A stretch of DNA of 35,966 bases from Desulfobacteraceae bacterium (GTDB taxonomy: Bacteria > Desulfobacterota > Desulfobacteria > Desulfobacterales > JAABRJ01): contig JAJDNY010000015.1 in the NCBI GenBank assembly GCA_022340425.1, positions 1 through 35,966 of the forward strand. The letters are read 5' to 3'. Positions 16,144 through 35,966 of this stretch are shown here, piece after piece (the stretch's first letter is position 1; each line of letters begins with the position of its first letter). Under the pieces are notes generated by a model. It made no database searches and was not told where the DNA came from. It worked only from the letters and a program-made list of their open reading frames with translations. The position numbers and the translations under genes are program-made.

Positions 16144-16209
16144 GCACCCGTTTCACTTGACCCTCATTTCTGGCCGTTGGTTCTGTATCCGCGCAGCAAA
16201 ACGGCCGAT

Positions 16210-16366
16210 GACAAGGCAGGTCTTCTGGCTTACGGATCAACCGAGCACCCGCGCCTTCCCGTCTGAAGGGTTCCAGACAGTGGCATGTTGCGGGTGTCGT
16301 CCCCGATTACAGCAGCGGGACCGCTCCCGAATTTCACGGGATTCCCTATTAAGCCTTTACGGCACC
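16210..16366 (-). ncRNA. Cobalamin riboswitch
   Basis: Read on the minus strand, the region carries the conserved parts of the cobalamin aptamer in order: GGGAATCCCGTGAAATTCGG with the following GGAGCGGTCCCGCTGCTGTAA-like core, GCCACTG at 16284-16278, GGAAGGCGCGGG, and the B12 box AAGCCAGAAGACCTGCC at 16231-16215. It lies in the 480-base gap between the PHP gene and cbiK, with a promoter just before it and a terminator after it. Binding of adenosyl- or other cobalamin is expected to switch off the cbiK operon. Confidence 0.95.
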
Positions 16367-16376
16367 TTGATTTTCC

Positions 16377-16405
16377 CCTCTAAACGATCGGCGGAAGTTT
16401 GTCAA
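16377..16405 (-). promoter_or_regulatory. Predicted promoter of the riboswitch-controlled operon
   Basis: On the minus strand TTGACA (16405-16400) is followed after 17 bases by TAGAGG (16382-16377). Transcription would start near 16370, almost exactly at the 5' end of the riboswitch. The -35 element overlaps the stop codon of the PHP gene. The -10 box matches only moderately. Confidence 0.6.
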
Positions 16406-30632: not shown

Positions 30633-30963
30633 GCCGCGGCGCGCCTGTGGTCAGAAGTGAAGGGGCCGGCCATCGGGTGGGCTGCCACCCAATGCCGATA
30701 TAGAGTCAGGATGCCGATATTTCGGCACCTTTAAGGCCTTGGCGCAATCTTCAGGCGCCGCTTGCCACTCGCAGAAATCAATTGATTCAGATGAGTTATC
30801 CCTGTTTTTGCAGCCTTCCGCAGGCTTTAGTATGGATTTCGCATTACCACTTCAGTGTTGCCCTGACCCTGCCTGATCCAGAACTGAAATTGATACCTTT
30901 GGAGACCAGGTCCCGGGAACGCCTTTGGGAAGGAAAACAAAAAACCAGAAAGGAACATCCATC
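30633..30963. other. 331-base gap between cls and a lipoprotein gene
   Basis: The direct repeat ATGCCGATAT occurs twice around 30692 and 30711, the second copy leading into a small GCCGATATTTCGGC hairpin. An AT-richer part near 30780-30910 may contain the promoter for the next gene, but I see no clear pair of boxes. No gene is evident. Confidence 0.4.
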
Positions 30964-31668
30964 ATGAAAAAGACAGTCAAAGCGGTTTTGGCAATGGGCA
31001 TCGGTTTGGCGTTCGCGGGGGGTATCATTTCCTGCGCCACCACGGGTTCGCAAACGCCGGAAGCCGCACCTAAACCGCAAAAGGCGGGTTTTCTCGGAGA
31101 ATACGCCGAGAATTTAGCGCCCGGCCCCGAGGGCGGGGCCAAGATGCGCTGGTTGAAACCGGGGGTTGATTTTGCGAAATACAACAAGGTGATGCTGGAC
31201 AGCGTCATCTTCTTCTTTGCTGACGACTCGGAATACAAGGGCATCGATGCCAACGAATTGAAGGAACTGGCCGACGGCTTCAACCTGCAACTGGTCACCA
31301 CCCTCAAAGAACGCTATCCCATCGTGGCCGAACCCGGCCCGGACGTCCTTCGGGTCCGAATCGCCATCACGGACCTCAAGCAGAGCCGGCCCGGCTTGAG
31401 CGGTATCAGCACGGTCGTCCCGATTGGATTGGGTGTGAGTATTCTCAAGAAGGGCGCCACGGGTTCGTGGGCGGGGTCGGGGTCGACCAGTGCGGAGTTG
31501 ATGGCGCTGGACTCGCTGTCCAACGATGTCATTGCCGTTGCCCAGGACGATAGAAGCGCCGCCTTCACCGAACGCTTCACCAAGTGGGGATCGGCGGAGG
31601 AAGCCTTCAAGTTCTGGTCGGAGAGGATCAAATTGTTCCTGGACAACGCCCGCGGTGCCAAGCAGTAG
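30964..31668 (+). CDS. DUF3313-type lipoprotein
   Basis: This 234-residue predicted lipoprotein has the signal sequence MKKTVKAVLAMGIGLAFAGG followed by IISC, a lipobox with Cys near residue 22. The mature part has MRWLKPGVDFAKYNKVMLDSVIFFFADDSEYKGIDANELKELAD and AEPGPDVLRVRIAITDLKQSRP, as in DUF3313 proteins, whose role is unknown. A Gly/Ser-rich stretch (GVSILKKGATGSWAGSGSTSAELMALDS) follows. AGAAAGGA lies nine bases before the chosen ATG; an in-frame ATG at 30925 lacks a signal peptide start. It precedes the MscS gene by 200 bases. Confidence 0.82.
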   Translation: MKKTVKAVLAMGIGLAFAGGIISCATTGSQTPEAAPKPQKAGFLGEYAENLAPGPEGGAKMRWLKPGVDFAKYNKVMLDSVIFFFADDSEYKGIDANELKELADGFNLQLVTTLKERYPIVAEPGPDVLRVRIAITDLKQSRPGLSGISTVVPIGLGVSILKKGATGSWAGSGSTSAELMALDSLSNDVIAVAQDDRSAAFTERFTKWGSAEEAFKFWSERIKLFLDNARGAKQ

Positions 31669-31868: not shown

Positions 31869-34262
31869 ATGAAAAACGTTGTGAAACGCTTCGCGTGGAT
31901 ACTGGCCTACCTGTTACTGTTCGCTTGCTTCGCCAGCGGGGTTATATGGGCGCAGAAGTTCCCGCAACCCAAGGCGAAAAAGCCCGCGGCCGCCCCCCAG
32001 GAGATCGTGCTGCCCGCCCACCTGCAGACCCCGGAGCAGGTTGAGGCTTTCATGGGCCCGCTGACCGACGAGCAGGCACGCCAGGTGCTGGCCCGGGTCC
32101 TGAAAGGGCAGGCGGCCGCGGAAATTCTGCCGGATGCGGGGCGGCCGGCCTTCGGGGTCCGGGGCAATCGGCTGGGGCAGGCATTCTACGGGGCGGCCGA
32201 CGCCGCCGCGGCACTGGTGAAAAAGCTGTCCGGGACCCTCGGTGAGGCGGACGCCCGATCACAGAATCTGGGCGATGCCTGGCAAAAGCTGACCGGCGGC
32301 GGGGGCGTGGGACGCTTCGCCCGCATCCTGCTGGCCCTTTTTTTCATCCTGGCTGCGGGGTTGCTGCTGAGAGGGCTGCTTTTTCGCCGGACCCGGGATG
32401 TCCGCGAAAGGTCGCTCGCCTCGCTGCGATTGGGGGTGGTGGGGTTTTGGGGGCGGGTTGCCGCCCACCTGACCCAGGAGATCCTGGGGGTCGCCGTGTT
32501 CGCGGCCACCACCTTCATTCTCTTTGTGTTTTTTTTCCAAAAGGGGGACCCCGGCTACGCCTTCGTTTCGATCTATCTGATTGTCAGCTACTATCTGATG
32601 CTGATGGTGGTTGCGGCCAAGGTCGTTTTTTCACCAGACAACCCGACCCTGCGCCTGTTCCCGATGCCGGACGGCGACGCCGCCTTTCTTTATCGCTGGC
32701 TCCTCCGCATCGCGGCCGGGGCTGCCGTGATCGCCGGGGCGAGTGCCGTGCTGGAAGAGATCGGCGCCGGCGAACCGGTGTGGGTCGTGCTTTACAGCCT
32801 GGCCGGCGTATACATCACCATCGTCCTGGTGGCCATGATCTGGAAAAGCCGCCGGCGGGTTGCCGAGGCCATCCGGCCGGCGGGTGCGGAAACCGCGGAA
32901 GGCGGCCCACGGGCCGCCCTCGCCCAGTACTGGCACTACCTGGCCAGCGTCTACGTGCTCGGCATGGGCGCTTTCTGGGTTGCGGATGTCCTCTTGGGGG
33001 AAGGCACCCGGGTGCTCAACCTGGTCCTCAGCCTGTTCGTGATCCCGGTTTTCATCGGGCTGGACCAGTGGGGGCTGCGACTTCTCAAGCTGGCCTCGGG
33101 CGAGGTGGCGGAGCTGTTCGATCTGAGCAGCGACCGGGTGCGGGAGTTGCCGCCCCTGGCTGAGGAGAGCAGGATCAAGCATTACGCGCCGCTGATCCTG
33201 AAGTTCTATCGGCTGGTGTTGGCGGCGTTTCTTTTCTTCATCGTGCTGGGCCTGTGGGGGGTGAGTTGGACCGTCGGCAGGTTCTTTACTTCACACGTGT
33301 TCAGCATCGTCGTGACCCTGCTGCTGGGCTTTATCGCCTGGGAGTTCGTCAAGGCCCGCATCGACAGCCGGCTGCGCCAGGAAATGCCGGCGGCCGACGA
33401 AGAGATGGAGGAGGGCGGGGCAAGCGGCTCCCGCATCGGAACGCTCCTCGTGCTCCTGCGCAAGTTCGTTCTGACGGTGTTGTTCGTGATCGTTTCGCTG
33501 ATCGTGCTCTCCGCCCTCGGGGTGAACATCGGCCCCCTGATCGCCGGCGCCGGGGTCATCGGCCTGGCCATCGGTTTCGGTGCCCAGACCCTGGTGCGGG
33601 ACATCATCTCCGGCGTGTTCTTCCTGATCGACGACTCTTTTCGCATCGGGGACTACGTGGAGTCCGGTGAGGTCAAAGGAACCGTCGAGAAAATCTCGCT
33701 GCGCTCCATGAAGCTGCGCCATCCCCGGGGAATGGTCTACACCGTACCCTTCGGGAATTTGAAATCGGTCACCAACTTCAGCCGGGACTACATCATCACC
33801 AAGCTGGAATTCCGCGTGCGCTATGACACCGACGTGGAAATGGTGCGCAAGATCATCAAGAAGATCAACAAGCAGCTGCGCAAAGACGAGGCCTTCAACC
33901 GCGCCATGCTGGGTGATCTCAAGTCCCAGGGGGTGAAGCAATTTGAAGACTCGGGCATGATCCTGAGGGTCAAGTTCAAGACAGTGCCCGGGGAGCAGTT
34001 CATCATTCGCCGGGAGGTCTTCCGGATGATCCAGGAGGAGTTTCACGCCAACGGCATCGAGTTCGCCCACCGCAACGTCACCGTTTACATGCCGCCAGAG
34101 CTACAGACCCCGGCGAGCGAGGCCGGACAGTCGGTGAAGACCGCCCAATCCGTCGATCAGAATGTCCTCCAGGCGGGCGCGGCGGCCGCTCAGGCCGTGC
34201 TCCAGCAGGAAGAGGAAGACCGGCTGAAGGCTCAGGCGGGGACCAAAGGGAAAGGGAAATAG
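31869..34262 (+). CDS. Large mechanosensitive channel, MscS family
   Basis: This 797-residue channel opens under membrane tension. A signal-like N-terminus (MKNVVKRFAWILAYLLLFACFASG) precedes a periplasmic segment, about nine to ten membrane helices, and the MscS core. The core shows ALGVNIGPLIAGAGVIGLAIGFGAQTLVRDIISGVFFLIDDSFRIGDYV, the pore helix and beta domain, then KLRHPRGMVYTVPFGNLKSVTNFSRDY and the C-terminal domain. The long extra membrane region makes it a YbiO/YjeP-like type rather than MscS itself. A glutamine/alanine/lysine-rich tail ends the protein. GGGAG stands nine bases before the ATG. It is followed within about 20-30 bases by the glutamate-receptor-like channel gene. Confidence 0.92.
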   Translation: MKNVVKRFAWILAYLLLFACFASGVIWAQKFPQPKAKKPAAAPQEIVLPAHLQTPEQVEAFMGPLTDEQARQVLARVLKGQAAAEILPDAGRPAFGVRGNRLGQAFYGAADAAAALVKKLSGTLGEADARSQNLGDAWQKLTGGGGVGRFARILLALFFILAAGLLLRGLLFRRTRDVRERSLASLRLGVVGFWGRVAAHLTQEILGVAVFAATTFILFVFFFQKGDPGYAFVSIYLIVSYYLMLMVVAAKVVFSPDNPTLRLFPMPDGDAAFLYRWLLRIAAGAAVIAGASAVLEEIGAGEPVWVVLYSLAGVYITIVLVAMIWKSRRRVAEAIRPAGAETAEGGPRAALAQYWHYLASVYVLGMGAFWVADVLLGEGTRVLNLVLSLFVIPVFIGLDQWGLRLLKLASGEVAELFDLSSDRVRELPPLAEESRIKHYAPLILKFYRLVLAAFLFFIVLGLWGVSWTVGRFFTSHVFSIVVTLLLGFIAWEFVKARIDSRLRQEMPAADEEMEEGGASGSRIGTLLVLLRKFVLTVLFVIVSLIVLSALGVNIGPLIAGAGVIGLAIGFGAQTLVRDIISGVFFLIDDSFRIGDYVESGEVKGTVEKISLRSMKLRHPRGMVYTVPFGNLKSVTNFSRDYIITKLEFRVRYDTDVEMVRKIIKKINKQLRKDEAFNRAMLGDLKSQGVKQFEDSGMILRVKFKTVPGEQFIIRREVFRMIQEEFHANGIEFAHRNVTVYMPPELQTPASEAGQSVKTAQSVDQNVLQAGAAAAQAVLQQEEEDRLKAQAGTKGKGK

Positions 34263-34291
34263 AAGGCGATTCGGATGGGGTGTTGAAGTCC

Positions 34292-35398
34292 ATGTTTTCA
34301 AATCCAAAGCTCCTGGGGATCGGTTGCGGGGTGATCTGGTTCTGGCTTCTTTTGGTGATGCCTGAGAATGCCGCTTCCCAAGACGACGCTGCGGTTTCAC
34401 CCAAGCTGGTGGTGGGGACGGTGGTGGCGCCGCCGATGGCCATGAAAAACGCCGATGGCCGATGGGAGGGCTTCGGTATCGAAGTCTGGGGGACCGTGGC
34501 CGAGGAGATGGGCGTTTTGTTCGAGATTCGCGAATTCGGCAGCCTGGGTCTTTTGGTGGATGCGATCAAAAACGGAGACATAGACGTCATCCCTTCCTTG
34601 CCTGTGGAGGCGCGGTACGAAGCTTTCATGGATTTCGCCCAATCCTACCTGAAATCGGGATTGGCCATTGCGGTGCCGGTGGCAGGTGCCGGTGGCAGAT
34701 TGCGGAGCGTTACCGCAAGCCTATTTTCAAAGGATATCCTGCAAGCGGTTGGTCTGCTGGTCCTGATGTCGCTGATAGCCGGGATGGTCGTCTGGGGGTT
34801 TGAAAGGCGGTCCAACCGCGAAATGTTCGGTGGTGGGGCTGGGAAGGGGATCGGCCAAGGCCTCTGGTGGTCCATGACGACCATGACCACCGTGGGATAT
34901 GGAGACAAGGCGCCAAAGACAATCGGCGGGCGGATCACTGCGGCCGTCTGGATGCTCTCATCGATCGTCTTTATCTCCAGCTTTACGGCCCACATCACGA
35001 CCTCGCTGACCGTCGGTGAGCTGCGCGGCAAGGTTCGCGGCTTTCACGATCTTTTCAATGCCCGCGTCGGGTCCATACCCGAATCCGAGGCCATGATTTT
35101 CCTGGCTAGCCGCGGGATGGCCGCAAAGCCCTTTAAAACCATATCCGAAGGGTTGCAGGCGGTCGCCGACAAGAAAATAGATGCGTTTGTGTTGAATGAA
35201 GTCATACTGAAGTACTTTGTAAAAAATGAATTTCCCGGGCGGGTGCGGGTCATACCCGGAATTTTTGATGAATATTTTGTCGGCATCGGCTTGCAAGCCG
35301 GAAGCCCGCTGCGCAAACCGGTCAGCCAGGCATTGCTGGAGTTGATGAAAACCGAAAAATGGACTGAACTGCTCAATCGCTATAAACTGAATTCTTGA
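34292..35398 (+). CDS. Prokaryotic ionotropic glutamate receptor-like potassium channel
   Basis: This protein of about 368 residues (372 from a GTG at 34280) combines a periplasmic amino-acid-binding fold with a potassium-channel pore. After an N-terminal signal/anchor, lobe one spans about 40-150 (KLVVGTVVAPPMAMKNADGRWEGFGIEVW and VDAIKNGDIDVIPSL). Next come a helix (DILQAVGLLVLMSLIAGMVVWGF), a pore loop WWSMTTMTTVGYGDKAP with selectivity filter TVGYGD, a second helix (AAVWMLSSIVFISSFTAHITTSL), and lobe two from about 250 (LRGKVRGFHDLFNARVGS to TEKWTELLNRYKL). This is the GluR0 layout: ligand binding outside opens a K+ pore. The ligand is unknown. It probably shares a transcript with mscS. 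Confidence 0.9.
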   Translation: MFSNPKLLGIGCGVIWFWLLLVMPENAASQDDAAVSPKLVVGTVVAPPMAMKNADGRWEGFGIEVWGTVAEEMGVLFEIREFGSLGLLVDAIKNGDIDVIPSLPVEARYEAFMDFAQSYLKSGLAIAVPVAGAGGRLRSVTASLFSKDILQAVGLLVLMSLIAGMVVWGFERRSNREMFGGGAGKGIGQGLWWSMTTMTTVGYGDKAPKTIGGRITAAVWMLSSIVFISSFTAHITTSLTVGELRGKVRGFHDLFNARVGSIPESEAMIFLASRGMAAKPFKTISEGLQAVADKKIDAFVLNEVILKYFVKNEFPGRVRVIPGIFDEYFVGIGLQAGSPLRKPVSQALLELMKTEKWTELLNRYKLNS

Positions 35399-35461: not shown

Positions 35462-35966
35462 ATGTCAACCCGACACCTGATGGCCTGCCATGACTGCGAC
35501 CTGCTCTACCGCATGCCTGCCGTTGCCGAGGGCATGACGGCCACCTGCGTCCGTTGCGGGGCGGTGCTCGCCAGGCCCAAACGCAACGGCCTGGAGCGCT
35601 CGCTGGCCCTGGCGGTGGCCGGCCTGGTTCTTTTCGTGCTGGCCAACAGCTTCCCGTTTCTGGGCTTCAAGGTCCAGGGCCAGGTCCGGGAGACGCTGCT
35701 CTTAACCGGGATCTGGGAGTTGCACCTGCAGGGGATGCCCCAGGTAGCCTTGCTGGTGTTTGTCACCACCGTTCTCGCCCCGCTGGCGCAGCTGCTCGCG
35801 CTGGTTTACATCCTGCTGCCGCTGAGGCGCGATCGTCCGGCACCCGGCATGTTTCAAGTCTTCCGCTGGCTGCGCAGCATCGCGCCCTGGAGCATGACGG
35901 AGGTGTTCATGCTGGGGATTCTGGTCTCGGTCGTCAAGCTGGCCAAGATGGCCCAGATCATCCCGG
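35462..35966 (+). CDS. pqiA: Paraquat-inducible protein A (PqiA/YebS family), cut by the window end
   Basis: 168 codons are visible and no stop is reached. The protein starts MSTRHLMACHDCDLLYRMPAVAEG, with a zinc-ribbon pair CHDC and CVRC (TATCVRCGAVL) as in PqiA, then a helix ALAVAGLVLFVLANSFPFLGFKVQGQ, two further hydrophobic segments and RWLRSIAPWSMTEVFMLGILVSVVKLAKMA, all family features. PqiA works with PqiB (MCE domain) and PqiC in envelope lipid transport; partners would lie beyond the window. The ribosome binding site is weak. Confidence 0.85.
   Translation, partial: MSTRHLMACHDCDLLYRMPAVAEGMTATCVRCGAVLARPKRNGLERSLALAVAGLVLFVLANSFPFLGFKVQGQVRETLLLTGIWELHLQGMPQVALLVFVTTVLAPLAQLLALVYILLPLRRDRPAPGMFQVFRWLRSIAPWSMTEVFMLGILVSVVKLAKMAQIIP

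Follow-up and report, generated by a model that had tools for sequence, protein, structure and literature searches.

A GluR0-type channel gene of a Desulfobacteraceae bacterium in which the amino-acid clamp of the binding pocket is exchanged for other conserved residues

The described channels nearest to the one considered here are the Synechocystis protein GluR0 (slr1257) and its Nostoc counterpart NpGluR0 (2pyy). Synechocystis GluR0 is a K+-conducting channel whose N- and C-termini face outward, and it influences the volume of the cell after KCl shock (PMC13099474). In a survey of 22 prokaryotic channels, the Arg and the Asp of the binding pocket were found to be totally conserved (PMC2950845). 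Among eukaryotes, AvGluR1 of Adineta vaga is an iGluR with a K+-channel filter, and the animal ionotropic receptors (IRs) retain the iGluR fold with some of the glutamate-contacting residues lost. The IRs serve below as a parallel case and not as a related group (PMC2924276).

The window, as the whole stretch of analysed DNA is called here, is one entire contig (C15) of 35,966 nucleotides from a draft genome of 3.97 Mb. Near its right end, an uninterrupted open reading frame on the plus strand starts with ATG at 34292 or, alternatively, with GTG at 34280 and ends at 35398, giving a protein of 368 or 372 residues; the pocket residue numbers below are counted from the GTG start. The protein has a hydrophobic helix or putative signal peptide at its N-terminus (34304-34357, helix 5-22 of the structural model). 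This helix is followed by the S1 lobe of a ligand-binding clamshell (34406-34678), the M1 helix (34730-34804, model helix 147-171), the selectivity filter TVGYGD (34889-34906), the M2 helix (34922-35023, model helix 211-244) and the S2 lobe (35030-35395), all on the plus strand. The gate region of M2, SSFTAHITTSLTV, can be aligned with SSYTANLAAFLTV of GluA1. A search of the genome found no second GluR0-type channel, so that the window gene is the sole copy. A scan of a collection of genome contigs with the protein yielded a single partial relative.

The layout originally predicted, that of GluR0, in which a two-helix pore interrupts a type-3 binding protein fold, is borne out by four kinds of evidence. 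Pfam assigns SBP_bac_3 to residues 43-368 (E 9.6e-15), split by Lig_chan at 161-262 (4.2e-15) and Ion_trans_2 at 187-243 (3.3e-13), all of them far beyond chance. The top match in a sequence search of the PDB is the ligand-binding core of NpGluR0 (2pyy, E 2.8e-22), after which come an ancestral binding protein and numerous AMPA receptors. The modelling that had been proposed as a check gave confident clamshell lobes: the AlphaFold2 model, built from a 32-row alignment, has a mean pLDDT of 85.7, with both lobes at about 91-96, and M1, the pore helix and M2 are all helical. Foldseek superimposes the whole chain of the model on the ligand-binding domain and transmembrane part of GluA4 and GluA2 over 366 columns (E 1e-21). 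The TM-scores are merely about 0.6, as would be expected if the angle between the lobes and the pore differs from that of AMPA receptors. As the two lobes flank two helices and a pore loop with the T-V-G-Y-G filter, as in Group 1 of Ger 2010, the protein is a GluR0-type channel and presumably K+-selective.

The protein shares with GluR0 and NpGluR0 the S1-M1-P-M2-S2 order, the K+ filter, the signal peptide and a similar size. Its likeness to the eukaryotic AMPA and kainate receptors lies in the pore-split clamshell, in the fold match described above and in the resemblance of its gate motif to theirs, but it has neither an ATD nor M4, its filter is of the K+ type and its pocket is different. 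AvGluR1 has the same kind of filter, but it is eukaryotic and opens in response to glutamate and to hydrophobic amino acids.

It is in the pocket that the window protein departs from GluR0 and NpGluR0. Of their pocket residues, the Thr, the Arg, the Asp, the Pro and the lid Tyr are all replaced, and Phe, Glu, Tyr and Val are gained. The residues by which an amino-acid-gated iGluR is recognized are exchanged one after another: the S1 ligand Thr (the GluA2 T480 column) is Pro, the S1 Arg for the alpha-carboxylate is Tyr113, with an Arg one position before it (the Arg-Tyr pair at 34613-34618), and the S2 Asp/Glu for the alpha-amino group is Asn306. This Asn belongs to an Asn-Glu pair (35195-35200) that stands in place of the canonical Asp-(Ala)-Pro. 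The column of GluA2 Thr655 holds Glu (35087-35089), giving Ser-Glu rather than Ser-Thr. The Arg/Asp pair, which was to be looked for in the pocket, is thus Tyr and Asn, and a separate profile-profile alignment gave an identical register, so that two independent methods agree. The suggestion that the ligand is an amino acid finds no support in this pocket.

These exchanges are not peculiar to one protein. In a tree of 71 rows, from which the four pocket columns had been left out, the window protein falls into a clade of 17 rows (support 100/100) that is spread over seven families of its order. The pocket columns of this clade were compared with those of 40 K+-filter relatives outside it. The S1 ligand Thr is absent from all 17 members (P, A, S or G instead). 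The Arg is lost in 14 of 17, being retained only in L040, L107 and L108 and replaced by H, Y, F, L or N elsewhere; counted against the outside relatives, it is present in 3/18 of the clade and 35/38 of the others. The Asp column holds 12 N and 5 D (5/17, against 38/40 outside). Pro308 occurs in none of the 17 and in 40/40 of the outside relatives, and the lid Tyr of column 334 in none of the 17 and in 39/40. At the same time, other residues have become characteristic of the clade: Phe303 and Tyr332 are found in all 17 members, and Val334 and Glu307 in 14 each. The TVGYGD filter is kept in all 17 full-length members. By replacing the Arg and Asp, the clade departs from the published picture of total conservation. 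The loss of glutamate contacts in an iGluR fold recalls the animal IRs, but the window channel is bacterial, has a K+ filter and is phylogenetically no IR, so that the change is parallel only. The canonical Arg has been lost independently in another GluR0-like lineage (L086, L087 and L088; N, L and S in its place), which does not belong to the order of the window.

The protein is under purifying selection. Its dN/dS is 0.23 in the comparison with L036 and 0.18 in that with L037, with the lobes and the pore each below 0.35. Together with the filter, intact in every full-length member of the clade, these low values indicate that the gene is very probably functional. Between the window and its congener the ratio is 0.62 over half of the channel gene (bootstrap 0.37-1.01), and that of a nearby PLD gene is 0.13. 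Positive selection between the congeners is not claimed, because the interval reaches 1 and only half of the gene is covered.

By combining these observations, it is possible to describe how the channel might work. By analogy with GluR0, the protein would assemble as a tetramer into a ligand-gated, K+-selective channel, and its two lobes would lie in the periplasm. When a small molecule there binds between S1 and S2, the clamshell would shut, and its closure would pull on M1 and M2 and open the TVGYGD pore. Since the amino-acid clamp is replaced by another conserved pocket, the ligand is, judging from the pocket residues, most likely neither glutamate nor any other plain alpha-amino acid. We therefore favor, with moderate confidence, a ligand-gated K+ channel of the GluR0 family in which the clamp has been exchanged for a different conserved pocket. 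The confidence is no higher because the early Arg leaves a shifted contact with the carboxylate possible.

This contact is the basis of a competing explanation, in which the channel is an ordinary amino-acid-gated GluR0 whose Arg has slipped by one position and still holds the carboxylate, while Asn306 and Glu307 hold the amino group. The Arg ahead of the canonical column is invariant in the seven sequences of the window's own subclade (f1/f31), three members of the clade retain the Arg and five the Asp, and iGluRs may tolerate a partial loss of backbone contacts (PMC12226733). For the Epsilon receptors GluE2alpha, glutamate binding is predicted even though R485 is missing (PMC12226733), and this counts against a non-amino-acid pocket. 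However, 6 of the 14 Arg-less members (L042, L044-L047 and L110) have no basic residue at the preceding position, the Thr, the Pro and the lid Tyr are missing from every member, and the profile alignment assigns Tyr, not the neighboring Arg, to the column. We thus regard amino-acid gating as rather unlikely. A still less probable explanation, to which we would give little weight, is that the clade is losing its ligand gating and that a relaxed, non-binding clamshell now sits on a K+ leak channel, either constitutive or sensitive to tension. That the Arg column is so varied (Y, F, L, N and H) and the ratio between the congeners so high would agree with such a decay, but of the new pocket residues Phe303 and Tyr332 are fixed across families and Val334 and Glu307 almost so, and dN/dS in the lobes at larger distances is 0.14-0.32.

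A ligand-gated channel with an exchanged pocket thus remains the preferred reading. The clade breaks the invariant Arg/Asp clamp described in surveys, yet keeps the pore, which suggests that the receptor-channel scaffold serves other ligands in bacteria. In a broader form, for which we see about even chances, bacterial K+ channels of the iGluR family would, independently of the animal IRs, have given up the recognition of amino acids, and their new, conserved pocket would suit periplasmic ligands of another class. This would have happened in several of the order's families and perhaps for a second time in L086-L088. As the proteins of the clade are small and encoded by single genes, they would be handy for finding such ligands. 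To call such genes glutamate-gated on the basis of architecture alone is unsafe annotation.

The right end of the contig carries, all on the plus strand, a DUF3313 lipoprotein-like gene (30925-31668, PF11769), a large mscS-family gene (31869-34262, 797 aa, PF00924 and PF21082), the channel gene, and the start of pqiA (35462-35966, PF04403), truncated by the contig end. The mscS product has the Pfam MS_channel domains and scores 181.8 with PRK11465 (YbiO-like), for which the cut-off is 596. Between congeners, its N-terminal part changes fast (68% identity), and its MscS core is 96% identical (window 31869-34262 and L048 581-3082). Elsewhere in the window there is a cobalamin riboswitch (RF00174, 120.8 bits) on the minus strand at 16198-16384.

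The gap between the end of mscS and the ATG of the channel is 29 bases, in agreement with the earlier estimate of about 30. From this proximity, joint control had been proposed, and one can imagine a single osmotic unit: MscS would release solutes on hypo-osmotic shock, and the channel would sense the released solute in the periplasm and move K+. The short gap on the same strand, kept in the one congener sampled (G055), is consistent with such a unit, as is the part of Synechocystis GluR0 in volume regulation, for which effluxed glutamate has been proposed as the trigger (PMC13099474); the OpuAC-domain relatives described below link the channel family to osmolytes. But when synteny was followed into the relatives whose flanks were examined, as had been suggested, the adjacency was found in that congener and in none of the others, so that it is not conserved and is confined to one genus. 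The mscS orthologs of the sister family f31 (G152, 67% identity; G030, 66%; G126, 49%) each lie on a contig other than that of the channel. In two sister genomes the channel is instead beside pqiA and a pqiB with MlaD domains (L038 1-8177, which also has DUF3313 and MlaA, and L039 5965-10685), which makes mscS look like the newcomer. Finally, the pocket appears not to be glutamate-specific. The case for joint control is thereby weakened, and we consider a single osmotic unit unlikely; the two channels may share a role in osmotic response, although conservation lends this no support. Read most simply, the data point to a DUF3313/pqi neighborhood of older date, which mscS entered in the window's genus, so that its place beside the channel looks like a chance, recent arrival. 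The two genes may be co-transcribed in this genus, although mscS is not a conserved partner; a scan for sigma-70 promoters across the mscS-channel region found nothing above chance. No gene family recurs beside the channel across the clade members with flanks examined, apart from pqiAB in the two genomes mentioned and, in one family, genes of an Opp/Dpp-type peptide ABC transporter directly 5' of the channel (L043 462-5690 and L046 640-5700).

Such channels had also been called scarce in bacteria. Relatives were counted at E <= 1e-20 in samples of the order, class and phylum. At least one relative was found in 32/194 genomes of the order and in 22/395 of the phylum, some genomes hold up to six GluR0-type relatives, and 21 plasmid records carry relatives, those on plasmids of Alphaproteobacteria and Salmonella being more distant. 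The word scarce is therefore only partly apt: the family is patchy in its distribution and not rare.

In five genomes of the order, an OpuAC (glycine-betaine-binding) domain is fused to the N-terminus of a complete GluR0-type K+ channel, giving proteins of about 730 residues. Pfam identifies the fusions at L057 5986-8190 and L058 5989-8172, both on the minus strand, and two that are cut by a contig end, L060 1-1977 (plus) and L056 5974-7485 (minus); the fifth, L112 5983-8184 (minus), is 57% identical across the same layout. These channels retain the canonical Arg and Asp. In a further 198 genomes of the phylum, OpuAC-type and channel-type matches occur on separate proteins only, and a literature search, with subscription papers outside its scope, found no OpuAC or betaine fusions to GluR0-type channels. 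The fusions resemble the two-clamshell ATD-LBD layout of eukaryotic receptors. As a review gives bacterial iGluRs an LBD and a pore only (PMC3483616), this layout merits a study of its own.

Other relatives differ in the pore. Four GluR0-like proteins (L071 1286-2395, L073 2303-3430, L074 5971-6966 and L098 1441-2547) have FVTSGPIRYYEF, FVTSWPIRYYEF or FATTGPIRYYEF in the pore loop in place of TVGYGD and are, from these loops, possibly non-K+ channels. The pore loops of L093-L097 and L113 are unusual as well (SGVCFGISL, for example), and those of L099-L101 are of another type. Of a GluR0-like protein, a 199-residue open reading frame at L062 4373-4972 encodes no more than the pore and S2; it lies 2.9 kb from a full-length one.
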